Assembly: GCF_021134715.1 (NCBI RefSeq)
Contig: NC_060018.1
Coordinates: forward strand, 248,001-312,000
Direction: 5' to 3'
Length of the DNA stretch: 64,000 nt
From: Daphnia pulex
Lineage: Eukaryota; Arthropoda; Branchiopoda; Diplostraca; Daphniidae
Shown one piece after another: positions 12,050 to 29,970 of the stretch; the first letter of the stretch is position 1, and every line of letters starts with the position of its first letter. The notes beneath the pieces are model-generated. The model had not been told where the DNA came from. It saw only the letters and a list, made by a program, of their open reading frames with translations, and ran no database searches. A program made the translations under genes and the position numbers.

Positions 12050-13270
12050 GAAGTCATTTCAAAATGGCTGCCTCCATTACGTGAAGTGAAGGAAGAGTGT
12101 CACCAGTGTCACCTGCCTAATAAAGTGAGTGTGCTAGAGCCAGATATGAATATTTAATGTAAATTTTTGTGTGGTGAATTATACAGATAATATAGCCTAC
12201 AATTTACACTCGGCAATTCCATCTGAACTGCTTTTTTCCAAAATGTCGTCTCTTGCTGCACGTACCGGCTGTGCGTTTCGTCCCATGTAACCCTAAGGTT
12301 ACACATTTATTTATTTGATGACCTTGTTTCTGATAATAATAGAGTTTTTACTTTTCTATTAACGGCATGGTGAAGTCTGAGGTTCTTCATTGCAGTCCAA
12401 TGTGCTGTGCAGTGTGATTTGTTGCAGCCAGCTGACGAAAGGTGTTCTTCTTGCAGGCTTGCTACCTGTACCATTTATGGCTTTCGTCACATGTAGAAGC
12501 ACTTCCAAACAATTTAAAGTAATTAAATTGATCAACTTTTTTACAGTAAGGCTACACATTAAATTTGTTGAAAACTAGCTGTTTCCTTAACATCTGTCGA
12601 CTTTACAGTTAAGACTGTTTAAAAAGCTTGCCAACTGTTGATTCCTTTGTAAAAGTAATTCTTAGATATTGCTTAGCTTTACTATGCTTCTGTTATTTTC
12701 TAATGTTACACATCACTTTGTTTTCTGATAGTAATTGAGTTTTTTCCCCAAGTAGGATTAACAGCCTCTTGAGGTCTGATCCTCTTTGTTGCAGTCCATT
12801 GTGTACGTGAATCTTGTGCAGCCAGCTAGTGAACGGTGTGGTGAGCTGTTGCATGCAGAGTGTGGTGCTGGTGTCGTTCGTTCACTTAACAATGAACCAT
12901 TCAGTCGTTCGCTTATCGTAAGAAATCTGTCACTTGTCGTAGATGTGTAAAATTGTGTCGACTAGTTGGCAATTGGCAAAGTAGGTTAGCATTTAGTTCT
13001 TGCAGTCGAAGACAAGTGACATCTTATTTTGTGCTTCTATATAAGTGCTTTAGTGAAAAGTACTTCTAAAGAGTTTTAAACTTTTTTTGATGAAACATAA
13101 CAGAAATTCCCTTGCTCTTTAAAAAAGTGAAGTGAAATCTTGATGATCTTTGATCACCTTCTTGATTTCTTTAATTTAGTGTACATTTCAAGTAAATCAT
13201 TATTGGTGTTTTTTTTTACATTTCAAATTTTTATTGTTCTTTTACTTTATAGATTTCCATGGACAGTTTT
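12050..13270 (+). repeat. Block A: non-coding segment with internal tandem units, inverted copy at 28.8-30 kb
   Basis: This stretch matches the reverse complement of about 28790-29970 with clear but imperfect identity (my estimate about 85%); for example GCACGTACCGGCTGTGCGTT near 12258 recurs inverted near 29740. Inside the block a unit starting TTCTGATAATAATAGAG (about 12328) recurs as TTCTGATAGTAATTGAG (about 12722), each followed about 70 bp on by TTGCAGTCCA and a GCAGCCAGCT sequence, so the unit is duplicated at a spacing of about 394 bp. A GTAACC/GGTTAC inverted repeat lies near 12285. The repeated TTGCAG motifs look like splice acceptors, so a spliced non-coding RNA is possible. No long open frame is shared by both copies except a short minus-strand reading (12359-12559) that I do not consider a gene. 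Confidence 0.6.
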
Positions 13271-15327
13271 ATGTTTGAGCTGTTGATGGTGTTGCTGTAT
13301 GAGGTACAGTGGTTTTGCAGTCCTTTTCCAGTTGACAGATGCGCTAGAGCTTGTGCAGACTTGCAGTTGAACATCATACTTTAATATGTCATTTGCCTAT
13401 GTTGGTGTCCATGCAGTATATGCAGTGTTGTGCAAAATAGTCGATGTTGCCTGATGGCTGTCGGGCTTATTTTATCGGCAGCATTTTGTCGATATGTCGT
13501 GTCTTGCAACCTGTATCGCTGTTGAGGTAATGCTTAATGTACAGTCTCATTTAATTATTGAATTTAATTTATTATCTCCGTTTTCATTTCAGTTGATTCG
13601 TTTGCCGCCGTTCCTTAGACTTGATTCACCGGTGAAACTAAGAAGACGTTGCTGAAATTCAAGATTGATCAATAAATTATGTAGATAAATTGCAAGTGCA
13701 TAATCTGGGCTCCCTTCTTCAGTGGCCCCGTTTCCCTAAATAACCACTAACCAACGCCCGCTGGTGGTCACTCACTCGCTGCGACAACCAGGAGGAAGGG
13801 AGATGTCTGGTCGAACGGGGACGTGCAAGGCGCATGATTCGATGAAATCTGTTGGAGGGTCATGATTCTAAGCCGGAAGCCTACTATGATGCATTGCTCT
13901 CTTAAAATCTTTTCCTCGGCTCTCTTCGCTCTTTTTCCGGTTTCTCTTAACCATGGCCGGGTAATCTCCCTGGTCGAGTCAGTCGGGCAGTGTCTTCCCT
14001 TGCTTGACTGGCTGCAGTTTGAACCGGACGGTCTGTTAAAATAAGAATTTAAATCTAGAAAAACGCCTCCTTTGAGTGGCCCGGACAATCCTGAATCCTT
14101 TAGGGTTGCCATTCCATCGAGGCTTAAACGAGGGTACGTAATTACATGTTAGTCAAATTGATAAAGCTACAAATTCAATTGTTTGTATTACCCAGATGAC
14201 TAGGTGTTGCCCATTGAGGGGTTTTGGTGACAAGGAGTCACTAAACGAAACGCTAAACCAAATGAAAACAAAAAATATTAAAAAAGGTAATGCTAGATAC
14301 GACATGAAGCTTTTGCTTTCGCAGAAAATAATGTGAATTTGTTTGCAGCCAACGATCCTTTATATATCCAAGCCGAGTCCTTTCCGTCTACATTCGGTGT
14401 GAAGAGCAAAACCCAAATTTCAACACATTTAACTGCTTAGCAACGAAAACAAAGCGAGTGTCAAAACATTGTTTTACTTGCATACTTTATTGTGGCAGAA
14501 ACGCGTTCGTCATGTAACAGGGTGGATTTTTTCCCCTTTTGTTCATGCAGCATCAAACGACACGCGATAGGTTCCGGCGGTCATCATTTCATCAACTATT
14601 CAAGATGGTAGACCTGTCAATGTAAAAGACAGGGTAAAGGTAGCTCCTGTAAATGTTATTCATTTATGTTAAATAGCTGCCAGTAGGATCTCATTGTTGA
14701 TTTGCGGTTACAAAATCCATAGCCCTAGAGTTCAGGTATTGTCAATCAATCATTTGATTTGCGTTTTAGATACTCCTAAATCAGTTGTGGAAATACCATT
14801 CCCCCCGCTTCTCCTGGATGGTTACTTAGGATCATTTAACTTCATTTATGAGTTATGCGTTGTGAACATAGCTGACGACGACGAACTTTCAGATGGCATT
14901 TCGTATGCAATGCCATCTGGTATTTCATTAATTATTTCGTCTAGAACACAATTTGTATAATTATAAAATGCTCGTTTGCAATTTTTGAATTGCGTGAATC
15001 ACGACTCTGACTTCATTTCAATATAAAAAAAAGAGTAAAAACGAAGGAATGTAAACGGGTGTGAACTGTGTAGGGGGAATGGAAGCGGCGTTGGGCCGGT
15101 TGGGGTGGGGTAATATAAACAGAGAAACAGTGAATCTGGCAATGTTGTCGGACGCCATTTTTTTCTCCATATGCGCCTCCTACAGTTTCATACCCCGCTT
15201 GCTTTTTAACTTGTAAGGGTGTGTCGGTTTGAAACCCTAGAATTTTTTGAATATTTGTTTCTCTAATCTGTACTTTGCACTGACAAGCACTCGTTTGAAT
15301 TTAACAAGACTTTACTGGAATTTCAAA
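13271..15327. other. Intergenic region upstream of lamin
   Basis: No recognised gene. A minus-strand open frame of 114 codons at 13768-14112 has no known domain. A perfect 11-bp stem with an 8-base loop lies at 14890-14919. The last 300 bases, with a GGACGCCATTTTTTT motif near 15150 and splice-like AG sites, should contain the lamin promoter and 5' UTR. Confidence 0.4.
14890..14919. repeat. Short perfect hairpin
   Basis: CAGATGGCATT is followed by an 8-base spacer and its exact reverse complement AATGCCATCTG. It is isolated and has no T-run or neighbouring gene end that would mark it as a processing signal. Confidence 0.6.
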
Positions 15328-18300
15328 ATGTCTACAAGAAGTGAAAGAACACCGGAATCTAGCTCGCAAGCATCCAGCTCGGCTTCCCAATCACGAAGCT
15401 CACCTCTCAGCCCAACACGTTTAACGCGCCTTCAAGAGAAAGTCGAACTGCAAAACTTGAACGATCGTCTTGCCAACTACATCGACCGAGTTCGCCAATT
15501 AGAGTCTGAAAACAACCGATTGACTCTTCAGATCACCACCACACAAGACTCTAGGGAGGTGACTTCTGTGAGAGGTTTATACGAAAAAGAACTTTCAGAC
15601 ACACGTCGACTTATTGATAAAACAGCGAACGAAAAGGCAAGATTTCAGCTTGAAGCACGACGGGCAACAGCTGAGCTGGGAGAATTGACTCCAAAGTAAG
15701 TAAAGTTTTATGAGTTGCTCTCGATTTTACATTGGAATGTGTTTCTTGTTAGATTATAGACGACATGAATTGTTTAACATGGGACATTATCTTTATTGGT
15801 ATCTCAAGTGATATTTGACATTGGATTTGATAAGTTTTTATCAAAAATGGATTTCAGCTTTTTGTATTTGCACTTGAAACTGCATTTCACTGTGCAAGGG
15901 GAATGGTATTGTTTTGTTTTGATGATCAGCTCTAGCGATTTGTAAACAGCTTTTTGAGTGGGTTGGTTTATGTAGTTATAGGTTTGCACCCTTATAACAC
16001 ATCAACTCTTTTTCCAGGCTTGGGAAAACCTAGGCGTTTAACGCGTTCTCTACTTTTAGCCCCCAAGGCAGAGAAGACCGGAAAGTATTCCCATAGACTT
16101 CACTCTGTAGGGTTTGATAATAAGCATAGAGAAGAGAAATGGTTGTGTTGGTTTGCTGGATTTTCTTTCCCGCGTTGTGCAGTTTAACTTCACGTTGTAA
16201 AGTGGAGGGAAATTCGGTTAATTTCACATTTTCTCTGTGTTTCTCTTCTTACAAGATCGTTTATTCTGTTGGGATGTCATTATTTACCTAACTTTGTGAA
16301 AGACGAGACCCGTTTACATAGGGAACGGTCACTAATCCTCAGGCAATTACAGTGTTTGGTAGAAAGCTTTTGGTGGCGTCACTTGTGTTAACTTTTGAAT
16401 AGACCGGGGGGGGGGGGCGTGCTTGTTCTTCTTTGAGAGGGTGAACTCACCGAGGGAGAGCCTTTCCGCTGGGGTCTTGTTTCGCCACTCCCTTGTCCGT
16501 TAAGAAACGTGTACTTTTTGCGTTTTTTAAATTTGGGTTCTCATAAAATGTGTCAAATTTTATTTTAATGGATGCTTATTAAATTTTTGTTTTTTGAATA
16601 GATTCAATAAAGCAATAAATGAGAGGGACAAGTTGGCAAAGCAAGTGTCGGAATTACATCTGGCACTTGAGTCAGAATTGCTGGCCCGCGCCGATTTGGA
16701 AAATCGGAACATGACTCTCAAAGAAGAGCTGTCGTTTAAACAACAGGTTATTCATCTAAAGTTGATTTTTTAAACTCTGTTCCTCATTTCCGTGTTTTAT
16801 TTCCAACAGATGTACGAGCGAGAAATGACCGAAGTAAGATCCAACAAGCAAGTTGAAATCAGCGAGATTGACGGACGCCTTCAAGAACAAAACCAGGCCC
16901 GTCTGCAGTCCACATTGCAAGAACTGCGTGATCAATACGAATCCCAGATTCAACAAAGCCGAGATGAAGTCGAAGTCCTATATCAGAATAAGGTTTGTCT
17001 AGATTAATTATCTTCACAGCTTCAATTATACACTGACTTGCTATCACAGGTTGAAGATTTGGAAGACCAGGTCAAAAAGCAACGAGGTGCAGCTGGCGCT
17101 CATTACGAAGAACTCATTCAAGCTCGTAATCGTCTGAAGGACGCCAACCTTAAACTGTCTGACATGGAGTTGGCTAATTCTCACATGAAGGTATGTAGCA
17201 AACGCGCAATGGCTGGAATTAATTAACTCCAAATGTTATGCATAGTCACATTTTTCTTGTCTTGCCAGGACCGCATTGCTGAGATGGAACGAAACATGGA
17301 AACCGAACGCCAAACGCACGCAACAGCTATGCAGGATGCTTCAGCTAACTCTTCCATGTGTCAGGGAGAAATCACCCGCCTTCGCGAACAAATGGCCATT
17401 CAGTTGCAAGAATACCAGGATTTGATGGATATTCGTACGGCACTCGACATGGAGATTTCCGCTTACCGTAAGCTCCTTGAAGGCGAAGAAACCCGGTAGG
17501 TTGATTATACCACAAGACCATGGAAACGCTTATTTAATAGATTGATGTACTCATGACCCAACTTGCGTTATTTTCTAAACAGATTGAAATTGACGCCAAC
17601 GGCGGGTGCCTCCACCTCACAGAGCACTCGCTCTGGAACTCCGTCCTGCCGCACGCCGACAAGCAAGCGGACCATGCTCGAAGAATCCTCCACTTTCACT
17701 TTGGCCGATTTTATCATCTCTTCAAGCGCAAAGGGAGAAGTGCAAATCGAGGAAGTCGATTCTGAGGGCAAATTCATCCGCCTGGTCAATAAAAGCGAAA
17801 AGGTATCAACGTTTTCTCTCAAGCACTTTGTAATTTAACCTGTAATTTGTCTTTTCAATTTGCAGGAGGTATCGTTGGGTGGATGGCAGTTAGTGCACAA
17901 GGCCCAGGATCTCGAGACCATTTACAAATTTCATCGTTTATTGGAAGTGGCTCCCGGAGGCACAGTGTCCGTTTGGTCGGCAGGTATGCAGCTGTTATGT
18001 CAGCATTCGTTTGGCACGAAACGTGCGAAATCGAGGCGTTGTTTTGTTAACAGTTTTTTTTTTCTGTTTAGACAGCGGAACAGCTCACAAGCCGCCTTCC
18101 ACACTGGTGATGATGGGGCTGCAATGGTTTGTGGCCAGAGAAATGGTGACGCAATTGCTCGACAACAGCGGAAAGGTAAGCTGTTGTCCGAAGTTGTGTG
18201 TGCCCTCCCATATTTATCTCATTATTCGTTGAAATACATTTTGAGTTGTTTTTCGCCCCACGTAGGAAATGGCTCAGTGGGAGAGCAAACCAGCGCATAC

Positions 18301-18504
18301 GCAGGTAAAAAAAGAAAGAAACGAGATTTTTTCGTATTTTTCTTCTTCACATGTTTATGAGTTGCTGCCGACTAGTCGAACACGGAGGGGAAAATCTTAT
18401 CTAACTCATCGTTTGTCTTATTTTTTCTTTTCTTTTTGGCTTCTTTGTCTCTGCCAACTGAACAGGGGGACCCTCCTGGAGAAGCTCTCTGTGTTGTACT
18501 GTAA
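15328..18504 (+). CDS. Nuclear lamin
   Basis: Ten exons: 15328-15695, 16602-16746, 16810-16992, 17050-17190, 17269-17495, 17583-17802, 17866-17983, 18072-18175, 18266-18304 and 18466-18504; 527 aa, all phases consistent. Order: Ser-rich head with a mitotic-type SPLSPTR site, coil 1A ([19 protein letters not shown]), coils 1B and 2 ending in the intermediate-filament helix-termination motif [15 protein letters not shown], a short linker, the lamin-tail Ig fold ([18 protein letters not shown] ... GGWQLVH ... [10 protein letters not shown] ... THKPPST-like region), and a C-terminal CaaX box CVVL. Lamins form the meshwork under the inner nuclear membrane. Two oddities: the linker has only TSKRTMLEE where vertebrate lamins carry a KKRKLE nuclear localisation signal, and the final Leu of CVVL predicts geranylgeranylation rather than the usual farnesylation. 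The ATG at 15328 is preferred to an in-frame one at 15247 because [12 protein letters not shown] matches lamin heads. Confidence 0.93.
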
Positions 18505-19387
18505 TCATCTCATGAGTACTTCATCAAGGTAAGAAAAGAAAACCACAACACGAGAAATTCTGTTGGAAATTTCCTTTGTTGGTCATCTGCAATGATGCTG
18601 ATCGGTTTTCTTTTTTTTTTCTCCCTCTCTTTGCCAGATGTGTTCACCGAAGCTTTTTCAAGTGTCTTACGATTGGGTCAACGAGTTCTATGATTGGAGA
18701 GAGAGAAAAAGAGAGATGAATGTGTGCGTTCAAATATTTCTGACGCAAGCCGCCTGCCATTTATTAAATTCGTTCCACGAGAGAGAAAAATCTAAACACA
18801 AAACAAAATTGTCCGGTTCGTGTCGAGGTGAATTCGTGCGTCTGGAATCAATTCTCACGAGTTGCGCGTACACACTAGTTTTGACTAGATTTTTGCTTGT
18901 TAAATGCAGAGGAACGGCCCATATAGAAAGTAAAACAAAAAAAAAGCAATTCCAATTTTTTTACATCATCATCATTTTTGGAGTTCATTTAAAGTAACCG
19001 AAATTTCTTTTGATGTTTTGCCATCCCCCCCCCCCTTTCTCCCAGCACTCATCTCTTCAAATATTATTTTTCTGTTTTCTTCTTTCTCGGCTGCCGCCTT
19101 CATCTTCATTAATGTGTTGAATACACACCAACCAAATTCTTTTTTTTAAAAAGGGGATGATGTATGCATTTGTTTCGCTTTTTTTTCTCCCTCCCTCAGC
19201 CTTTTTTAACGCGTGGAAGCCAATACTATGTATCATCATAGTATTTGTTGCCTTTCTCCTATTTCCTTATGAACTTCGTTTCAAATAGTGGAACGGCAAA
19301 GAGCGAGGGTGAGCTCGTTATTAATGTAATTTTGTGAAATATGTACTAATGACATGTTTTTCTTCCTAGTTTCTTTTTCGAACAATT
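18505..19387 (+). other. Lamin 3' UTR and intergenic sequence
   Basis: No coding feature. A strong donor (CAAGGTAAGA, about 18527) and an acceptor near 18638 suggest an optional 3' UTR intron or an alternative lamin end. The remainder is T-rich, with a C-run at about 19026-19035. No repeat family was recognised. Confidence 0.4.
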
Positions 19388-19945
19388 TGATTTCTATTGC
19401 AATCTAGTTAAATTGAACGATAAAGATTGCGGTGGCGTTGCAGTCGTACGTTGGCACTGCGTCGTTAAACTTGACATTGTCGGTCAGAAAGCCGAATTTC
19501 ATGATGGCCGTACCAGGGCCGTACCATCACCTACGACAAGTCGACAAGTGCCTATTACCACAGGTAAACATTTTAATGTTCAACGAAATTCGTCTTTAAA
19601 AGTCTCAATGATAACACTTTTATCGAATGTTGAACAGCTTTGATAATCTTCCTGCTAGATAGTATCTGAGAGCCTATTTAAACTGCTAGCGATTTATTTC
19701 TGTGGTTACGAATCACTTAAAAAATGTCCTTCATTTTCTTGCTAGGTGGTAAACGAAAATCTTTGCCTATCCTTGAGCGGTGCCCCTAAAGATGTCCACG
19801 AGCAAGTGACGCTGTTCCGCAACCTCGATGGCCCAGTCCTCCCTAACTATTTAAGCCAATGGACTTTCGAGAAGGTGAAAGCGGAAGACGTTAATGTGGT
19901 GCCCAAAGCTTTTGTTGAGGGTGTAAGTTTGGAAGACTACTAATA
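19388..19945 (+). pseudogene. Apoptosis-inducing factor (AIFM1-like) fragment, middle part, decayed
   Basis: Reads VVKLDIVGQKAEFHDGR, then a disturbed stretch corresponding to the TYEKCLIATGG region of AIF, then GAPKDVHEQVTLFRNLDGP joined directly to LPNYLSQWTFEKVKAEDV and NVVPKAFVEGV. In intact AIF the IGGGFLGSELA dinucleotide-binding block lies between FRNLD and LPNYLS; it is missing here, so a segment has been lost. Two short direct repeats disturb the first exon: GGCCGTACCA at 19506-19515 and again at 19517-19526, and CGACAAGT at 19534-19541 and 19542-19549. AIF is a mitochondrial FAD-dependent NADH oxidoreductase. The next exons lie at 19969-20560 inside the palindrome arm. Confidence 0.7.
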
Positions 19946-19968
19946 TTATTGATTATTATTTAATTAAG

Positions 19969-20560
19969 GTCAAAGCGACATTGACCTTAAACGATGGTCA
20001 AAAGGTAATCAGTTATTTCAAATACATGTCTTGGCGATGTTTATTAAAATCTAAATATTATTCCATCTTAGTAAAACAGACCATATTGTCGCTGCTGTCG
20101 GTTTGAACACAAACACGGAATTGGCTGTCGCTTCTGATTTGGAAATAGATTCCAATTTTGGTGGTTATCGAGTCAATGCTGAGCTTGAAGCACGACCACA
20201 CGTCCGGTTGGTAAGAATCCTTGAACATTTTTCATTTCATATTAATTGTAATACTCGTGATTAAAACTTAACCAACATTGACTGCTCTGATGTTGTTGTT
20301 AGGTAGTTGTTAGATATAAAGTTCTTGTTAAATTAGATTCTAATTATTGGTTTTGGACTTTTATTTTTATTAGGCTGGAGATGCTGCCTTCTTTTGTGAT
20401 AGCAAATTGGGTCGTCATCGTATGAAACATCACCACCATGCTGTTGTATCGGGGCAATTGGCTGGAGAGAAGAATATTGGCAACGAAACATGGATGAACA
20501 ACTGCAGTGCACTGTCACCAAGTGCATTCTTCGTCGTATTATTAGTACGCAATCAGGTAA
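19969..20560 (+). pseudogene. AIFM1-like C-terminal exons in the left palindrome arm
   Basis: Exon-like pieces: 19969-20004 (VKATLTLNDGQK), about 20072-20210 ([16 protein letters not shown] ... [20 protein letters not shown]) and about 20374-20557 ([16 protein letters not shown] then [19 protein letters not shown]). These match the FAD-binding end of AIF (human [56 protein letters not shown]). After GNETW the similarity stops: the expected HQSMFWSDLGP block is absent. Continues the 19388-19945 fragment on the same strand; an exact inverted copy is at 27972-28563. Confidence 0.7.
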
Positions 20561-20694
20561 ATATTCTGTTTCATGGAGTTTGTATCAATTATTTGTTTTT
20601 ATCTGTTAATGTACCAAATTGAATATTAATGTTCAAATCATTTACCGCCTATTTGATTGTAGTGTCGTGCTGTTGCCGTTTGTCGTATCGTTTA

Positions 20695-21488
20695 AGGTTG
20701 GGTCGATCACTGGTGTACCCATGTCTCCTGGGTATGGCGGATACCAAAGCACCACGCCGCCGCCTTGCTACACAACGACAACATTCGCACCAACCGGTTA
20801 CTACACTGAGGGCCACAATTACTACACCACCAAGGCTCCAGAGTATTACACCGCAGCTAATGCTGCCCAGAGCTAAATCACCAAAGATCCTGAGTACTAC
20901 ACCGAGGCTCCCAAATACTACACCACCAAGTCACCGGAGTACTACACGTATGTTGCCCCAGCTTATACACCGAGGCTCCCAAGTATTACTCAGTTCCTAG
21001 CTACTACACCGGGGCTCCAACTAATTACACCACCAAAGCGGCTGAACACTACACCGATCCGCCCAAGTACTACACCACCAAGGCTCCAGAGTATTACACC
21101 ACAACTTATGCTTCCCCGAGCCACTACACCGAAGCCCCGAAGTATTTCTCTGCCCCAAGCTACACAACTACAACTGAGGCGGCCAAGTATTACGCAGCCC
21201 CGACTTACTACACAGCGGCTGCTCCTTCGTACTACGTTGAACCGGAATACTACACCGAGGCTCCAGTTTACTACACCACAACCCACGCTACATCTAGCTA
21301 CTACACCGAGGCCCCTAAGTACTACGCTACCAAGGCACCTGAGTATTATACCACTACTTACGCTGCTCCGACCAGCTACACCGAAGCTCCGAACTATTGA
21401 CTCTATCCCGAGTTACTACACCACTAAGGCACCTGAATATTACACCACACCCTACGCTTCTCCAACTTACTACAGGGACGTTTCTTAA
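20695..21488 (+). pseudogene. Tyr/Thr-rich repeat protein gene, frameshifted (left arm)
   Basis: After an acceptor-like AG at 20694-20695 the sequence reads VGSITGVPMSPGYGGY and then tandem variants of YYTEAPKYYTTKAPEYYTT, with codons such as TAC-TAC-ACC repeated about fifteen times. A TAA at 20874 and several frame changes break it; the last part, after about 21405, returns to YYTTKAPEYYTTPYASPTYY and ends at a TAA at 21486. Such low-complexity Tyr/Thr/Pro proteins are usually secreted, cuticle- or mucin-like; that role is inference. The exact inverted copy is at 27044-27837. Confidence 0.6.
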
Positions 21489-21951
21489 TACTATAGTCGA
21501 ATTTTAATCATGTTCAGATTTGTCGGTTCCTATTTCGCATGTTGGAGGTGACCTATTGCTCTAGTCGCTCTGCATTCCGACGTATTCTAGTGTTTGGACA
21601 AACTTCATTTACAGGGCAAGTTACGAAAGAGACATACTGTGGTGTTTACTAAAAAATTTTGATATTAACAGCTCTGTTTTTAACTTTAGTTGGCGTAACA
21701 TAGGAGTTGCAGATAGTGTATGGTTTCTCAAAGAAGTTTATTTGAAGGGTCTGGAGTTGATCAGTCACTTGCCTTTAACTTATGTAAAACTTCAAAGTTA
21801 AAAAATATACAAGTCGTGAACTAAACAATTTTTTATTATAAGTTATGAGACACAGTAAACAAAAATATTAAAAGGAATTGCTTTATTGTCCCACCTCCAC
21901 CCACAATTCCACCACATTTTACATTCACATACATACATACATACACTTAAG
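21489..21951. other. Arm spacer with TACA repeat
   Basis: Non-coding AT-rich sequence between the repeat gene and the MITE. A (CATA)n microsatellite at about 21929-21946 abuts the MITE insertion point. Nothing else was recognised. Confidence 0.4.
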
Positions 21952-21955
21952 TTAA

Positions 21956-22192
21956 CCCGTTGGCTGCCACGCCATACAACCCGTAGGTTGTACTCTACTG
22001 CTCTACGCGCCACGTCTGAAGGATCCGTGACCAAAGTGGGACTTGCCATTGCTGACAAGTCCGGGCTGACACGGTGACAGGAGAATCCATCACCGCATCG
22101 ACAAGGGGGAACTTGGTGCATTGCCAAACAGGCGCCTTTTGGCGCGGCCCATGCTAAGGAGCGGGGAGAACAAAGGCGTGGCATACAACGGG
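21956..22192. mobile_element. piggyBac-type MITE (left arm copy)
   Basis: A 237-bp element bounded by TTAA on both sides (21952-21955 and 22193-22196). Its ends are inverted repeats starting CCCGTTGGCTGCCACGCC on the left and, on the opposite strand, CCCGTTGTATGCCACGCC on the right. TTAA target duplications together with ends beginning CCC are the hallmark of piggyBac transposons. There is no transposase frame, so it is a non-autonomous element. Confidence 0.8.
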
Positions 22193-22489
22193 TTAACTAA
22201 CACAAACATATTACTAACAACAAATGATGATCCGCGCTGACACTTTGGAGATACCGGCGACGTTATGGTGTCCATCTTCTCGAAATTTCCTCTGCATTAC
22301 CTGAATAAAGAGAAATTCAATTCTTAATTACTGACAGGCCAATAAAAGTTACATAATACAGAAAGAAACAATAATCAGGTTTTTTAGCTCAAAGATTTAA
22401 ATATGCAATTTTTTAAAGTTTAAATCAAGCTTGCAATGTTGAGAACTGTTAACAGAACAAAGCTCACTTGCTAGTCTTTTTAAAAAAAT

Positions 22490-22800
22490 TCCGGAAGTAT
22501 ACCGGAAGTAACCACAGCGCCTCAACCATTGAGCTGTCGTCAAAATAAACCACATATTCGTGATCCCCATGAAATTTGGGGTCGATTAGGTGGGATTTAA
22601 ACGAAATCCAAAATTTGGCCAAAATCGAGAATTTTCCTGAACTATAGTTCAGGAAAATTTTCGAAACCGGAAGTACGAATACGTAAAAAATAAAACATGA
22701 ACTTTACCACAAATTTGACGAGGATCACGAATATGTGGTTCTTTCGTACGTCAGATGAATATTTACTAAACTACAGACTGAAATGAGTAAACCGGAAGTA
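22490..22800. mobile_element. Hairpin (foldback) repeat element with perfect central palindrome (left arm copy)
   Basis: A 30-bp perfect palindrome at 22630-22659 (AATTTTCCTGAACTA and its complement) has its axis at 22644.5. The same axis is shared by an outer inverted pair: ACCACATATTCGTGATCC at 22549-22566 and its near-exact complement ending at 22740. CCGGAAGT is repeated around and within the element (about 22495, 22505, 22670, 22792). This is the layout of a foldback MITE; the superfamily is unknown and the outer limits are approximate. Confidence 0.6.
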
Positions 22801-23055
22801 GAAATAAAAAATCAAATATCGAAAACCTAACAAATGAGCTTTGTTGGGGGAATGGTTATCGGTAGTTATCACTAAATTCTTCAACAAAATAACTGCCAAT
22901 AAATGTTTAAAAAGATGTCAGAGTAATGAAACTGACTGTTTTGACAGCTGCACATTTTCAAAAAGCCATCTAGCGTTAGAAATAACAAACGTCCAAGTAA
23001 AACTTTGTTTGCGCGCAAAAAGGGCCTGATTTTGGAATTATTACACAGACACAGA

Positions 23056-25476
23056 GTTTAACGCAACTAGACTATTGGTAGATAACCTAAGAAAATAAGT
23101 CAATTGTCCGGTACCTGGCCATAATCCCGAGGTAAGTAACTGCAAGTGTGTAACAGCAAAGGGTAGCGACCACGGAAGTGTTCCAACTCGTCGGTGAAAT
23201 AAGACAAGTTGTAGCAGCAAAAGCAGTGAAGCTAGATGAGTGTACGTCGGGAAGATGAGGATGGAGCAAAACTTGCTGGAAGTCTCTCTTCCGTCATGGA
23301 CAAAGGTACGCATTGGCTTAAGGATCTATTACGTGCTCTGTAAAAAAAAAATTTATTGCATTAATGAAAATATAACAGTTAATAAAGCATTTCAATCTTT
23401 ACCTTAAGTAACAAGCTCACTGAAAGTTTCATGATAAAAAACCGTAAAAATGGAAATCACAGCAACCAACAGCCTTACTCCTCAGGTTTAGGTAAATTTC
23501 CTGATGCTAAAGAAAGTGTCATTATGAAGTATTGCAGTAGCGTGGTGATAGGTTATATTGATGCTTACCTTTATCATATGGGTGAATGGTGATGAATTTA
23601 GTAAGGCATTTGACGTGGTGGGGTTGGTAGCAGTAATGGGGAAATACCTCGTCTCCGCACATTTGTATTCCACGATATTTGAGCTTCACATATGAGTTTT
23701 AGGTTTTTGACAACATGATGGGTCTATTTGAGGGAAAGTGACTGAGCGCTAAGTCAACTTTTGGGAATGACTGACAGTATGCATCTAAAATTTGAAGAAA
23801 AAAGTTGGTACAGTATAAAAATAAGGAAATCAGGTCAAGATAAACCTACACAAGTTACGAAGTTCAATTTGATATAAGAAATCACAGGAATATAATCACA
23901 GGAAGTATTAATCAGCTACAATTTGTTTCGCACTTTTCGCCTCGTTTTACGTTATAAAAACAACAAGGGCAACACTAGCGACATCTGGTAATGAGTTTTG
24001 AAATTTGAATCCTAATTTGGTTAATATTATTAAAAATACGTAATTACCCGACAATAGAACCCCACTGACAATAGAACCCCAATATTTTATATTTTTAAAA
24101 ATACTCGACAATAGAACTCCAGTGCTCGACATAGAACTCCACTACGCGACAATAGAACTCCGATAATTTGATCATTTCAGCTGTGACTGCGCAACCAACT
24201 TAGGATTCAAAACTCATTACCAGATGTCACTAGGGTCGCCATTGTTGTTTTTACAATGTTAAATGAGGCGAAAAGGGCGAAACAAATTGTAGCTGATTAA
24301 TACTTTCTGTGATTATATTCCTGTGATTTCTTATACCAAATTGAACTTCGTAACTTGTTTAGGTTTATCTTGACATAGTTTCCTTATTTTTATACTGTAC
24401 CAACTTATTTCTTCAAATTTAGATGCATACTGTCAGTCATTCGAAATTGTTGACTTAGCGCTCAGTCACTTTCCATCCAATAGACCAATCATGCTGTCAA
24501 AAGCCTAAAACTAATGTTTGAAGCTCACACATAGTAGAATACAAATCTGCCGAGTTAAGGTATTTCCCCATTACTACTACCAGACCATTACAATTCAGAT
24601 TTTCGTGTAACATAGGTATCCTTGCACATGAATCATAGGATCTTTTCTGAATCTTGCAATTTTGGTGGCACACCCTGCAATAGCATGTTTGTTGTTATGG
24701 ATGTTAAATTTACTTCGGTTTAGAAGGCAACCCAGCTAAGAGATAGGTACAGTTTTATTTCTCTTAGGTAAATTTGTAAATAATGTAGAGAATTTCCTTG
24801 TCCCATTCCCACTTACAGTTCAGAGACATGAAGCGTGTGAAGTGAATAACCTGCCATATTTATGTACATGTACCAGATTTGCTTGATGAAAGTCAAATGC
24901 TTTATTAAGTTTATCACCCATATGATAAGGTAAGCATCAAAACCACCTATCACGCTACTGCAATACTTCATGACACTTTCTTTAGCATCAGGAAATTTTT
25001 CTCAACATGTGGAGTAATGCTGTTGGTTGCTGTGAATTCCATTTTTACGGTTTTTTCATCATGAGCATTTCCGTGTGCTTCTTAGAAAAGGTAAAGATTG
25101 ATATGCTTTATTCATTGTTATATTTTCATTTATGCAAAACATTTGTTTTTACAGAGCACGCAGTTTCTGTATGGAATCGACGAATCGTGTGGTCCTGTCA
25201 CGGAGATTCTTGTGCCAATGCTGACCTTTGTCCATGACGGAAGAAGGACTTCCAACAACAATCTTCTCCATCTTCATCTTCCCGACGTACACTCATCTAG
25301 CTTCACTGCTTTTGCTGCTACAACTTGTCTTACTTCACCGACGAGTTGGAACACTTCCGTGGTCGCTACCCTTTGCTGTTACACACCTGCAGTTACTTAC
25401 CTCGGGATTATGGCCAGGTACCGGACAATTGACTTATTTTCTTAGGTTATCTACCAATAGTCTAGTTGCGTTAAAA
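23056..25476. repeat. Palindrome core: two diverged inverted halves around a short loop
   Basis: The two halves are still alignable as reverse complements but carry many substitutions and indels. For example 23341-23460 against 25031-25150 shows roughly 80-85% identity by eye, while 23057-23313 against 25220-25475 is about 95%. The halves meet near 24100, not at the arm axis (24266), so indels have accumulated unequally. Open frames such as 25098-25445 are restricted to one half or change between halves, and no protein family is recognisable. Confidence 0.7.
24049..24161 (+). repeat. Five-copy motif at the palindrome loop
   Basis: The 15-mer CGACAATAGAACYCC occurs at 24049-24063, 24066-24080 (first base T), 24106-24120, 24127-24140 (one base shorter) and 24147-24161. 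All copies point the same way and lie between the two inverted halves, so they mark the turn of the hairpin. Confidence 0.8.
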
Positions 25477-25731
25477 TCTGTGTCTGTGTAATAATTCCAA
25501 AATCAGGCCCTTTTTGCGCGCAAACAAAGTTTTACTTGGACGTTTGTTATTTCTAACGCTAGATGGCTTTTTGAAAATGTGCAGCTGTCAAAACAGTCAG
25601 TTTCATTACTCTGACATCTTTTTAAACATTTATTGGCAGTTATTTTGTTGAAGAATTTAGTGATAACTACCGATAACCATTCCCCCAACAAAGCTCATTT
25701 GTTAGGTTTTCGATATTTGATTTTTTATTTC

Positions 25732-26042
25732 TACTTCCGGTTTACTCATTTCAGTCTGTAGTTTAGTAAATATTCATCTGACGTACGAAAGAACCACATA
25801 TTCGTGATCCTCGTCAAATTTGTGGTAAAGTTCATGTTTTATTTTTTACGTATTCGTACTTCCGGTTTCGAAAATTTTCCTGAACTATAGTTCAGGAAAA
25901 TTCTCGATTTTGGCCAAATTTTGGATTTCGTTTAAATCCCACCTAATCGACCCCAAATTTCATGGGGATCACGAATATGTGGTTTATTTTGACGACAGCT
26001 CAATGGTTGAGGCGCTGTGGTTACTTCCGGTATACTTCCGGA
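25732..26042. mobile_element. Hairpin (foldback) repeat element (right arm copy)
   Basis: Mirror image of 22490-22800, with the 30-bp palindrome at 25873-25902. It was copied with the arm and is not an independent insertion. Confidence 0.6.
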
Positions 26043-26339
26043 ATTTTTTTAAAAAGACTAGCAAGTGAGCTTTGTTCTGTTAACAGTTCTCAACATTGCA
26101 AGCTTGATTTAAACTTTAAAAAATTGCATATTTAAATCTTTGAGCTAAAAAACCTGATTATTGTTTCTTTCTGTATTATGTAACTTTTATTGGCCTGTCA
26201 GTAATTAAGAATTGAATTTCTCTTTATTCAGGTAATGCAGAGGAAATTTCGAGAAGATGGACACCATAACGTCGCCGGTATCTCCAAAGTGTCAGCGCGG
26301 ATCATCATTTGTTGTTAGTAATATGTTTGTGTTAGTTAA

Positions 26340-26576
26340 CCCGTTGTATGCCACGCCTTTGTTCTCCCCGCTCCTTAGCATGGGCCGCGCCAAAAGGCGC
26401 CTGTTTGGCAATGCACCAAGTTCCCCCTTGTCGATGCGGTGATGGATTCTCCTGTCACCGTGTCAGCCCGGACTTGTCAGCAATGGCAAGTCCCACTTTG
26501 GTCACGGATCCTTCAGACGTGGCGCGTAGAGCAGTAGAGTACAACCTACGGGTTGTATGGCGTGGCAGCCAACGGG
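26340..26576. mobile_element. piggyBac-type MITE (right arm copy)
   Basis: Mirror image of 21956-22192, flanked by TTAA at 26336-26339 and 26577-26580. Identical to the left copy, including its terminal differences, so it was duplicated with the arm. Confidence 0.8.
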
Positions 26577-27043
26577 TTAACTTAAGTGTATGTATGTATG
26601 TATGTGAATGTAAAATGTGGTGGAATTGTGGGTGGAGGTGGGACAATAAAGCAATTCCTTTTAATATTTTTGTTTACTGTGTCTCATAACTTATAATAAA
26701 AAATTGTTTAGTTCACGACTTGTATATTTTTTAACTTTGAAGTTTTACATAAGTTAAAGGCAAGTGACTGATCAACTCCAGACCCTTCAAATAAACTTCT
26801 TTGAGAAACCATACACTATCTGCAACTCCTATGTTACGCCAACTAAAGTTAAAAACAGAGCTGTTAATATCAAAATTTTTTAGTAAACACCACAGTATGT
26901 CTCTTTCGTAACTTGCCCTGTAAATGAAGTTTGTCCAAACACTAGAATACGTCGGAATGCAGAGCGACTAGAGCAATAGGTCACCTCCAACATGCGAAAT
27001 AGGAACCGACAAATCTGAACATGATTAAAATTCGACTATAGTA

Positions 27044-27837
27044 TTAAGAAACGTCCCTGTAGTAAGTTGGAGAAGCGTAGGGTGTGGTGTAATATTCAGG
27101 TGCCTTAGTGGTGTAGTAACTCGGGATAGAGTCAATAGTTCGGAGCTTCGGTGTAGCTGGTCGGAGCAGCGTAAGTAGTGGTATAATACTCAGGTGCCTT
27201 GGTAGCGTAGTACTTAGGGGCCTCGGTGTAGTAGCTAGATGTAGCGTGGGTTGTGGTGTAGTAAACTGGAGCCTCGGTGTAGTATTCCGGTTCAACGTAG
27301 TACGAAGGAGCAGCCGCTGTGTAGTAAGTCGGGGCTGCGTAATACTTGGCCGCCTCAGTTGTAGTTGTGTAGCTTGGGGCAGAGAAATACTTCGGGGCTT
27401 CGGTGTAGTGGCTCGGGGAAGCATAAGTTGTGGTGTAATACTCTGGAGCCTTGGTGGTGTAGTACTTGGGCGGATCGGTGTAGTGTTCAGCCGCTTTGGT
27501 GGTGTAATTAGTTGGAGCCCCGGTGTAGTAGCTAGGAACTGAGTAATACTTGGGAGCCTCGGTGTATAAGCTGGGGCAACATACGTGTAGTACTCCGGTG
27601 ACTTGGTGGTGTAGTATTTGGGAGCCTCGGTGTAGTACTCAGGATCTTTGGTGATTTAGCTCTGGGCAGCATTAGCTGCGGTGTAATACTCTGGAGCCTT
27701 GGTGGTGTAGTAATTGTGGCCCTCAGTGTAGTAACCGGTTGGTGCGAATGTTGTCGTTGTGTAGCAAGGCGGCGGCGTGGTGCTTTGGTATCCGCCATAC
27801 CCAGGAGACATGGGTACACCAGTGATCGACCCAACCT
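27044..27837 (-). pseudogene. Tyr/Thr-rich repeat protein gene, frameshifted (right arm)
   Basis: Reverse-complement copy of 20695-21488 with the same internal stop and the same frame changes. The shared defects show that the gene was already broken before the arms became identical, or that conversion spread the defects. Confidence 0.6.
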
Positions 27838-27971
27838 TAAACGATACGACAAACGGCAACAGCACGACACTACAATCAAATAGGCGGTAAATGATTTGAA
27901 CATTAATATTCAATTTGGTACATTAACAGATAAAAACAAATAATTGATACAAACTCCATGAAACAGAATAT

Positions 27972-28563
27972 TTACCTGATTGCGTACTAATAATACGACG
28001 AAGAATGCACTTGGTGACAGTGCACTGCAGTTGTTCATCCATGTTTCGTTGCCAATATTCTTCTCTCCAGCCAATTGCCCCGATACAACAGCATGGTGGT
28101 GATGTTTCATACGATGACGACCCAATTTGCTATCACAAAAGAAGGCAGCATCTCCAGCCTAATAAAAATAAAAGTCCAAAACCAATAATTAGAATCTAAT
28201 TTAACAAGAACTTTATATCTAACAACTACCTAACAACAACATCAGAGCAGTCAATGTTGGTTAAGTTTTAATCACGAGTATTACAATTAATATGAAATGA
28301 AAAATGTTCAAGGATTCTTACCAACCGGACGTGTGGTCGTGCTTCAAGCTCAGCATTGACTCGATAACCACCAAAATTGGAATCTATTTCCAAATCAGAA
28401 GCGACAGCCAATTCCGTGTTTGTGTTCAAACCGACAGCAGCGACAATATGGTCTGTTTTACTAAGATGGAATAATATTTAGATTTTAATAAACATCGCCA
28501 AGACATGTATTTGAAATAACTGATTACCTTTTGACCATCGTTTAAGGTCAATGTCACATTGAC
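27972..28563 (-). pseudogene. AIFM1-like C-terminal exons in the right palindrome arm
   Basis: Copy of 19969-20560 on the minus strand. Its first exon reads VNVTLTLNDGQK instead of VKATLTLNDGQK because the arm boundary falls inside that exon. Upstream on this strand (28564-28760) the open frame is Lys/Arg-rich and does not resemble AIF, unlike the left side, where AIF continues. Confidence 0.65.
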
Positions 28564-28789
28564 CGCGACAACACAGACTGGTTTCAATCGCCTTTTCTCT
28601 CTCCTTTTATACGATTTTTTTCTCACCCTCACCTCCTTAGCCTTGCGGCTATTGGACCTTTTTGATAATGAAGCAACACGTGTCGTTCTCACCCAACCTC
28701 TACACCACTGCATGACACGTTTTACGTAATGATCTCCGTGACCTTCGAGCGTCAAGGCCATAGAAAATGGCCTTTTTCTTTCTGCAGGT

Positions 28790-29970
28790 TGACGTTGCTG
28801 GGGATGGGTCTACAATTAACCAATATGACCATGGAAATCTACAAACCGAAAGAACAATAACATTTGAATTGTAAAAAGATAGAAATAATGATTTACTTGA
28901 AATGTACACTAAACTAAAGAAAAAGAAATCAAGAAGATGATCAAAGATCATCAGGATTTCACTTCACCTTTTAAAAAAGCAAGGGAATATCTGTTATGTT
29001 TCATCAACAAAAGTTTACAACTCTTTACAAGTACTTTCCTACAACTTCCTTACAAAAGCACTTATTTAGAAGTACAAAATAAGATGTCACTTGTCTTCGA
29101 CATCAAGAACGAAATGCTAACCTACTTTGCCACCTAGTCGACACAATTTTACACACCTACGAAAAGTGACAGATTTCTTACGATAAACGAACGACTGAAC
29201 GGTCCATAGTTAAATGAACGAACGACACCAGCACCACAGTCTGCATGCAACAGCTCACCACACCGTTCACTAGCTGGCTGTACAAAATGCATGTACATGT
29301 ACTCGGTCTGCAATAAAGAGGATGAGACCTCAAGAGGCTGTTGATCCTACTTCTTAACTGTTAAGTCAACAGATGTAAAGCAAAGAGCTAGTTATCAACA
29401 ATTTTAATGTGTAGCCGTACTGTAAAAAAGTTGATCAACTTAATTACTTTAAATTGTTTGGAAGTGCTTCTGTATGTGACGAAAGCTGCAAACAGTACAT
29501 GTAGGAAGCCTGCTAGAGGAACACCTTTCGCCAGCTGGCTGCAACAAATCGCACTGCATAACACATTGGACTGCAATGAAGAACCTAAGACTTCAACATG
29601 CTGTTAATAGAAAAGTAAAAACTCTATTATTATCAGAAACAAAGTCATCAAATAAATAAATGTGTAACCTTAGGGTTACACCGACATGATCACTTTTACT
29701 GTTATGAAGTATTTCTACATGGGACGAAACGCACAGCCGGTACGTGCAGCAATAGACGACATTTTAGGAGTTTCAGGCCACATGATCAGATGGAATTGCC
29801 AAATATAAATTGTAGGCTATGTTATCTGTAGATGCTCAAAAAATTTACATTAAATAGCCTCAAATGAATACAATCAAGAGTTACCATTTTGATGACGAAT
29901 ATTATAATAACAGGGAGAATAAGTTGAGTTGACTTAGGTCGTGAGGCTGTCAGACTGTCAGCAGCCATCT
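28790..29970 (-). repeat. Block A': inverted, diverged copy of 12050-13270
   Basis: Corresponds to 12050-13270 in reverse complement, including both internal tandem units, the GTAACC/GGTTAC inverted repeat (about 29667-29682) and the ATGGCTGC box (here as CAGCCATCTTGAAAA, about 29959). Identity is clearly lower than in the palindrome arms. Its presence next to the right arm, without the lamin gene that separates block A from the left arm, indicates a larger old inverted duplication with later loss. Confidence 0.6.

Follow-up and report, generated by a model that had tools for sequence, protein, structure and literature searches.

The palindromes of the primate Y and X chromosomes are large inverted repeats whose arms stay more than 99% identical via arm-to-arm gene conversion (PMC3723533, PMC8981503), and conversion has also been proposed for the inverted paralogous gene pairs of Caenorhabditis, convergent or divergent in arrangement, whose arms co-evolve around a spacer that changes faster (PMC1803023). 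Palindromic blocks have further been described in Adineta vaga and Folsomia candida, invertebrates with asexual reproduction (PMC7953838, PMC5490193); according to the available part of the former report, Daphnia pulex was left unscreened, annotation being unavailable.

Here, we analyze a window of 64,000 nucleotides of the D. pulex genome (NC_060018.1, positions 248,001 to 312,000; all coordinates below are those of the window), which harbors a palindrome, hereafter W. As far as the accessible parts of these reports allow comparison, W and its relatives resemble the primate palindromes in being large inverted repeats with near-identical and apparently converting arms, whereas the Daphnia set is multi-copy and dispersed and consists mostly of broken genes. 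The co-evolving arms and faster spacer likewise recall the Caenorhabditis pairs; those, however, are gene pairs at sites conserved across species, whereas the Daphnia arms extend from 3 to at least 13.6 kb, carry mostly broken genes, and belong to the same palindrome recurring genome-wide. The process is known from Y/X palindromes and nematode inverted gene pairs, and what is unusual is the dispersed, mostly pseudogenic palindrome family, of which we found no report in the titles and abstract openings of the Daphnia literature, a scope that leaves most subscription papers outside. With a probability of about 0.85, we propose that W belongs to a dispersed family of convergent palindromes whose arms would be homogenized by arm-to-arm gene conversion.

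Structure and Gene Content of the Palindrome

The 8.6-kb palindrome is real in the assembly. The blastn self-comparison and alignment place it at 19968–28564, beyond which the homology between its halves ends. The left arm (19977–23055, + strand) and the right arm (25477–28555, − strand) are exact reverse complements, the pairwise alignment showing 0 differences over 3,079 bp. The initial annotation had described a mirror register in which position p pairs with 48532 − p without differences over about 3.08 kb per arm; this holds exactly over 19977–23055 and its partner 28555–25477, and indels cause the register to be lost inside about 23272. The first inner mismatches between the halves lie at 23056, 23145, and 23199 and are dense from 23259 onward, so that the left inner edge of the presumably homogenized zone (23056–23327, + strand; partner 25204–25476) contains 16 mismatches followed by an indel of ~40 bp. 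Further in, the left copy of core module C1 (23332–23585, + strand; partner 24914–25160) exhibits 86.3% identity to its counterpart within W and that of core module C2 (23622–24002, + strand; partner 24206–24586) 89.5%. The alignment also delimits an unpaired center (24003–24205), with a 20-bp tandem repeat at 24102–24161, and an unpaired stretch of ~330 bp in the right half (24587–24913). Overall, the core retains 86–90% identity with indels, in agreement with the divergence claimed for it earlier, although the lowest identity is not found at the center, as had also been stated, given that it rises from 86% to 89.5% further in.

An AIFM1-derived fragment occupies the left flank and arm (19269–20471, + strand), keeping its introns in a decayed frame and aligning in blocks of 81–88% identity with the AIFM1 locus at C7:11.498 Mb; its hand-joined translation matches AIFM1 structures (E 2.6e-43). 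The corresponding fragment in the right arm (28061–28552, − strand) is shorter and 84.4% identical to that locus. Both arms carry a copy of the YYT-repeat gene (20664–21488, + strand, and 27044–27868, − strand), each with a frame broken by frame changes and stops. W is flanked by an older outer inverted homology, detected by blastn self-comparison between 12151–13265 and 28826–29856 at 82–91% identity. On the left, the outer module (12151–14878, + strand) matches the outer parts of other palindromes, with a lamin gene lying between it and the arm; on the right, the module (28592–29856, − strand) has deletions relative to other palindromes. Position 12151, at which many matches start, was considered as a transposon terminus and dropped, since the arms of other copies run beyond it. 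A plasmid search returned no match.

A Dispersed Family of Convergent Palindromes

The unit found in W, an AIFM1 fragment together with a YYT-repeat gene, recurs as inverted pairs in convergent orientation elsewhere in the 133-Mb genome. Besides W, 13 further palindromes were read (14 in all), and the family extends over five contigs by sequence and six by score. The main arm blocks of all 14 differ between left and right by 0–0.98% (269 of 90,154 positions), a count that takes in neither the core blocks nor a 282-bp block of C2_0.40 nor the blocks of the C1_5.22 tandem array, and that is halved for C2_12.89 and C2_0.40, both of which align through the center. The highest value, 0.98% overall, belongs to C2_12.89. 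Arm module A1 has 2 left/right differences in 14,538 positions over the ten palindromes compared (0 or 1 in each), and between different palindromes the same module is 2.9–11.2% apart. Core module C2, by comparison, differs between left and right by 9–18% in W, C2_2.17, C2_5.04, C7_0.17, C5_0.35, and C5_0.48, where A1 differs by 0–0.1%. Module A3, which in W includes the inner edge, has no left/right differences in four of nine palindromes and 10–42 in the other five (12 retained in each of C2_2.17 and C2_5.04); homogenization is thus incomplete in some parts, such as this module and C2_12.89. The module comparison excluded three segments with coverage below 60% (A3 of C2_1.47 right, A3 of C4_0.26, and, for core C2, the right copy of C2_13.03), and it did not recover some core segments.

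Not every copy has this form. C2_0.40 and C2_12.89 are palindromic straight across the center, the sequence of C4_0.26 has one arm only, and the arms of the pair C7:263537/271496, known from search matches, are unlike in their identity to the query (86% and 83%). Sixteen main rows have no partner among the matches listed, of which at least one (C11:3509982) has a partner in another search. Among 41 near pairs of YYT copies (<20 kb apart), scores lay within 1 bit in 24 of 31 inverted and in none of 10 direct pairs, with the reservation that for the 12 of these 24 known by score alone an equal score is no proof of identity. Convergent orientation was observed in 23 of the 24, and a recurrent spacing of 5.2–6.0 kb in 12 of them suggests common descent of the palindromes.

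Site Patterns and Trees

In the comparison of W with C2_2.17, the first six 500-bp bins, which cover the arms, yielded 207 concerted sites, 0 side-shared sites, and 1 singleton, and the last three, covering the inner edge and core, yielded 1 concerted and 73 side-shared sites along with 20 singletons and 2 others. For C5_0.35 and C5_0.48, nine arm bins gave 121 concerted and 0 side-shared sites with 20 singletons, of which the innermost of these bins held 16, and core C2 gave 0 concerted and 41 side-shared sites, 14 singletons, and 3 others; two bins further in (3 concerted, 0 side-shared, 116 singletons, 7 other) were set aside, as the arm alignment runs into a retrotransposon insertion there.

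The trees follow the same division. With A1, the left arm joined the right arm of its own palindrome in ten of ten cases, and with core C2, W right grouped with C2_2.17 left (0.992) and W left with C2_2.17 right (0.747), while the C5 left copies grouped together (0.994), as did the C5 right copies (0.987). The left C1 copy of W differs by 0.8% from the C2_2.17 right copy, and in C2 the left copy of W is 1.0% from C2_2.17 right and its right copy 2.7% from C2_2.17 left. W and C2_2.17 have an inner 4.9 kb in common at 97.5% identity in opposite orientation, and their outer arms are ~9–11% apart. Because the members of each pair (W/C2_2.17 and C5_0.35/C5_0.48) share core left/right differences, the palindromes should predate their split. 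These comparisons strongly support the view that the arms were overwritten after that split, by arm-to-arm gene conversion. Of the three origins offered in the initial annotation, the site patterns of the two pairs therefore favor this one, and duplicating the outer parts a second time would not account for the 0–1 A1 differences in ten of ten palindromes while several cores share an old asymmetry; the third, an assembly join, is taken up below.

We infer that the ancestral unit comprised an AIFM1 genomic fragment and YYT-repeat gene copies placed tail to tail around a core, and that it spread to many places; the shared cores are observed, and the route of movement would be a matter of reconstruction. 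Within each palindrome, the arms would exchange sequence by non-reciprocal recombination so frequently that a mutation is either removed or ends up on both sides, presumably by pairing of the arms within or between chromatids followed by repair synthesis. Conversion would fade where core indels and older divergence break the homology, and for this reason asymmetric cores would keep their old left/right differences. The 97.5% block of W and C2_2.17 suggests exchange between different palindromes too, and conversion probably continues today. What was observed directly is the identity of the arms, the concerted patterns of sites, the core asymmetry that palindromes share, and the broken reading frames.

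Alternative Explanations

A DNA transposon of the foldback type, in which very long terminal inverted repeats enclose host gene fragments that it picked up, would account for copies on many contigs and for the introns retained in the captured AIFM1 fragment. Pack-type elements keep introns in the gene fragments that they capture. In the five palindromes examined, however, the arms cease to be identical at family positions that vary from one to the next, and no convincing target-site duplication was found, the longest words shared by the flanks being 4–8 bp and the 8-bp one AT-only. The arms of C5_0.35, moreover, extend over at least 13.6 kb and each contain an open galactosyltransferase frame. 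Seven further open reading frames gave two retroelement parts, one C2 domain, and four without match in Pfam, and no transposase was detected among the 15 proteins compared with that database, several of which are host genes. Lacking shared ends and convincing target-site duplications, the transposon assignment was rejected, and we regard this origin as improbable.

Drosophila hairpin-RNA loci derive from host genes. They yield endo-siRNAs (PMC10292708, PMC10317233), as the accessible parts of these reports describe, whereas the Daphnia palindromes are known from sequence alone. Under a similar explanation, the palindromes would be hairpin-RNA loci kept for siRNAs against YYT genes or AIFM1. 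The W arm has 37 21-mers in common with the AIFM1 locus and 408–996 with each of four other family copies, and therefore siRNA targets would exist; a single control stretch of the window had none in common with the AIFM1 locus, and the convergent arrangement would yield readthrough hairpins. Against this, conversion by itself explains the arm identity, and identity to the AIFM1 locus is merely 81–88%, so we consider such a function unlikely. Slightly more doubtful still is the idea of a conversion-kept bank of hairpin RNAs that would silence YYT genes or a selfish relative in the germline, in which case conversion would keep the hairpins perfect.

Each palindrome might instead have arisen recently and independently when a single-arm copy was duplicated by fold-back (snap-back), its arms being alike because they are young. 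Single-arm copies such as C4_0.26 do occur, and C2_0.40 and C2_12.89 have the uninterrupted center that fold-back predicts, yet in the six palindromes with a diverged C2 the core is far more divergent than A1, the core differences common to W and C2_2.17 and to both C5 palindromes indicate that these palindromes predate their split, and the recurrent YYT spacing suggests common descent. The shared asymmetry opposes fold-back for the asymmetric members; symmetric members could still fit, and as a general account it appears very unlikely.

Least probable, and disfavored on the sequence evidence, is an assembly artefact, whether from the joining of two near-identical loci, from a fold-back read, or from polishing that transferred the sequence of one arm to the other. 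The members read do have extremely similar arms, and the A1 counts are so uniform that polishing by reads of the other arm could contribute. Yet there is no N within the window or the palindromes checked, W has differing flanks and a diverged core, the 20-bp tandem array of C1_5.22 measures 353 bp (17.5 copies) on the left and 589 bp (29.5 copies) on the right, convergence of nearly all equal-score pairs is unexpected of random chimeras, and concerted differences between palindromes reach 3–11%.

Implications and Estimated Rate of the Proposed Conversion

If arm-to-arm gene conversion is the correct reading, many related palindromes with measurable arms and marked cores would constitute a natural experiment, in which replicates, instead of one Y chromosome, could reveal how fast conversion runs, how long its tracts are, and how indels affect it. 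Since most copies carry broken genes, homogenization could proceed here without selection to preserve what the genes do. The host is probably a cyclic parthenogen, and the family also bears on whether conversion can keep duplicates alike without outcrossing. The GC content of A1 (40.3–43.9% in palindromes and 43.7% in the one single-arm copy, a weak comparison) gave no sign of GC-biased conversion. Estimated as 2mu/d, the rate would be 3.3e-5 to 6.6e-5 per site per generation, with an interval of about 9e-6 to 5e-4. The available part of a D. obtusa study gives a conversion-like loss-of-heterozygosity rate of 2.62e-5 (PMC12926508), which applies between homologues and is comparable with the arm rate to an order of magnitude only.

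Structure and Gene Content of the Palindrome

Self-comparison of the window resolved the 8.6-kb palindrome (hereafter W) into an inverted repeat pairing 19968–23327 (left arm, forward strand) with 25204–28564 (right arm, reverse strand) at 99.4% identity over 3362 columns, and finer alignment confined the arm differences to both ends, with 0 in the 3079 bp from 19977 to 23055. Inward of the arms, the core comprised two paired blocks of 86.3% and 89.5% identity, interrupted by indels, and an unpaired center carrying a short tandem repeat. The identical outer arms and diverged core described in the initial annotation were confirmed, whereas its claim of minimal identity at the center was only roughly true, as the core has diverged without a strict central minimum. 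A putative MITE-like insertion with inverted ends, judged by eye only, is apparently present in both arms (21955–22198 and its mirror).

The arms contain an AIFM1 fragment with retained introns, adjoined by a YYT-repeat gene copy with a broken reading frame. The window occupies C2:248001–312000 of the assembly searched (133.2 Mb, 13 contigs). That assembly contained a single AIF_C match, at 11.498 Mb of contig C7, and this AIFM1 locus aligned to window positions 19269–20471 in blocks of 81–88%. A hand-joined translation of the fragment matched AIFM1 structures (E 2.6e-43), and Pfam returned no family for either of the two YYT pieces submitted. Pfam also supported a lamin-type gene (Filament domain at 15325–15696 and 17227–17496), an LSM protein gene, and a beta-helix protein gene within the window; “lamin” and “F-box” are provisional names for genes of the window. 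The lamin-type gene (15200–18400) separates two family modules (14878 and 19269) whose interval, in other palindromes, is occupied by about 1.6 kb of different family sequence, and a second, inverted copy lies at C2:465459–468952, with main blocks 94% alike.

Related Palindromes in the Genome

Probing the genome with 1 kb from the arm's outer end (40 scored out of 593 candidates) yielded at least 102 matches and at least 11 equal-score inverted pairs, W included, spanning about 8–17 kb. Besides W, nine palindromes with W-type arms and one single-arm copy were fetched, and four palindromes with related YYT arms brought the total to 14, in all of which the main arm blocks differed between left and right by 0–0.98% (269/90,154 overall). 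For the YYT repeat, the best 150 of 316 matches were grouped into 121 copies, forming at least 41 pairs less than 20 kb apart. Among the matches listed, 24 of the 41 agreed in score to within 1 bit, comprising 23 convergent pairs and a single divergent one, compared with none of the ten direct pairs (Fisher p 1.7e-5), an imperfect control given that direct pairs possibly belong to other subfamilies. Sequence was read for 12 of the 24 equal-score pairs, all among the 14 palindromes, the other 12 being known by score alone; by its search match, the C7 pair 263537/271496 has unequal arms. Several family copies on contigs C2, C4, C5, C6, C7, and C12 lie less than 0.5 Mb from contig ends, one of them (C12:10743262–10744270) about 1.3 kb from the C12 terminus; these positions hint at a possible subtelomeric preference.

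Concerted Evolution of the Arms

Over ten palindromes, arm module A1 showed left/right differences at 2 of 14,538 sites, compared with 2.9–11.2% between palindromes. Module A3, an arm segment nearer the core, had no such differences in four of nine palindromes and 10–42 in five. Less homogenized palindromes (named by contig and Mb) included C5_0.48, with 42/1194 differences in A3, and C2_12.89, with 0.98% overall in the arm blocks.

The core behaved in the opposite manner. In core module C2, the left side of W differed by 1.0% from the right side of palindrome C2_2.17, and its right side by 2.7% from the left side of the latter, versus 10.1% between the two sides of W; the labels of C2_2.17 are flipped because its core has the opposite orientation. 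Likewise, C5_0.35 and C5_0.48 differed by 3.3% left to left and 2.1% right to right, versus about 15–16% between the sides within each. Site patterns were classed as concerted (arms alike within, different between palindromes) or side-shared (an old left/right difference kept in both). Comparison of W with C2_2.17 gave 207 concerted and 0 side-shared sites in the first six bins of 500 bp, and 1 and 73 in the last three, which cover inner edge and core; between C5_0.35 and C5_0.48, the counts were 121 and 0 in nine arm bins and 0 and 41 in the core module.

Palindromes with a common asymmetric core would most simply descend from one palindrome, and their arms subsequently became identical within and different between palindromes. 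As judged from these alignments, the pattern is one of concerted evolution by arm-to-arm exchange. W and C2_2.17 are also 97.5% alike over the inner 4.9 kb and about 9–11% different in the outer arms; therefore, exchange between palindromes or outer-arm replacement also occurred.

Polishing could partly account for the uniformly tiny arm divergence, but a wholesale assembly artefact is less likely: left and right flanks differ, old cores are common to different palindromes, and the arms of C1_5.22 carry unequal tandem arrays of a 20-bp unit inside a YYT copy (17.5 copies on the left, 29.5 on the right). C1_5.22 has an additional 119-bp array further out in both arms.

Under the D. pulex mutation rates quoted in PMC12926508, the 0/3079 differences cap the last homogenization of W at roughly 1.1e5 to 2.1e5 generations ago, as against 1.1e7 to 2.2e7 generations for the 10% core difference. 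From the balance 2mu/d, conversion is estimated to proceed at 3.3e-5 to 6.6e-5 per site per generation; two differences underlie this estimate, so its interval is wide.

The double-stranded RNA proposed in the initial annotation is possible. The W arm has 37 21-mers in common with the AIFM1 locus and 408–996 with each of four family copies, which only show that potential targets of such RNA would exist.

Spread of the Unit

In all five palindromes examined, arm identity stopped at differing family positions, and their flanks held no convincing target-site duplication. The arms of C5_0.35, at least 13.6 kb long, include a 7.5-kb block with 99.97% identity between the two sides, in which lies an open galactosyltransferase frame of 415 residues, identical in both (L031 2592–3836 and its mirror, C5:363493–364737). 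Large-scale duplication plus ectopic exchange is likelier than a standard transposon as the means by which the unit spread. The core of C5_0.48 (L023–L025) carries an inserted Pao-type retrotransposon that has a long open frame; a piece of this element gave Peptidase_A17 and RVT_1 in Pfam.
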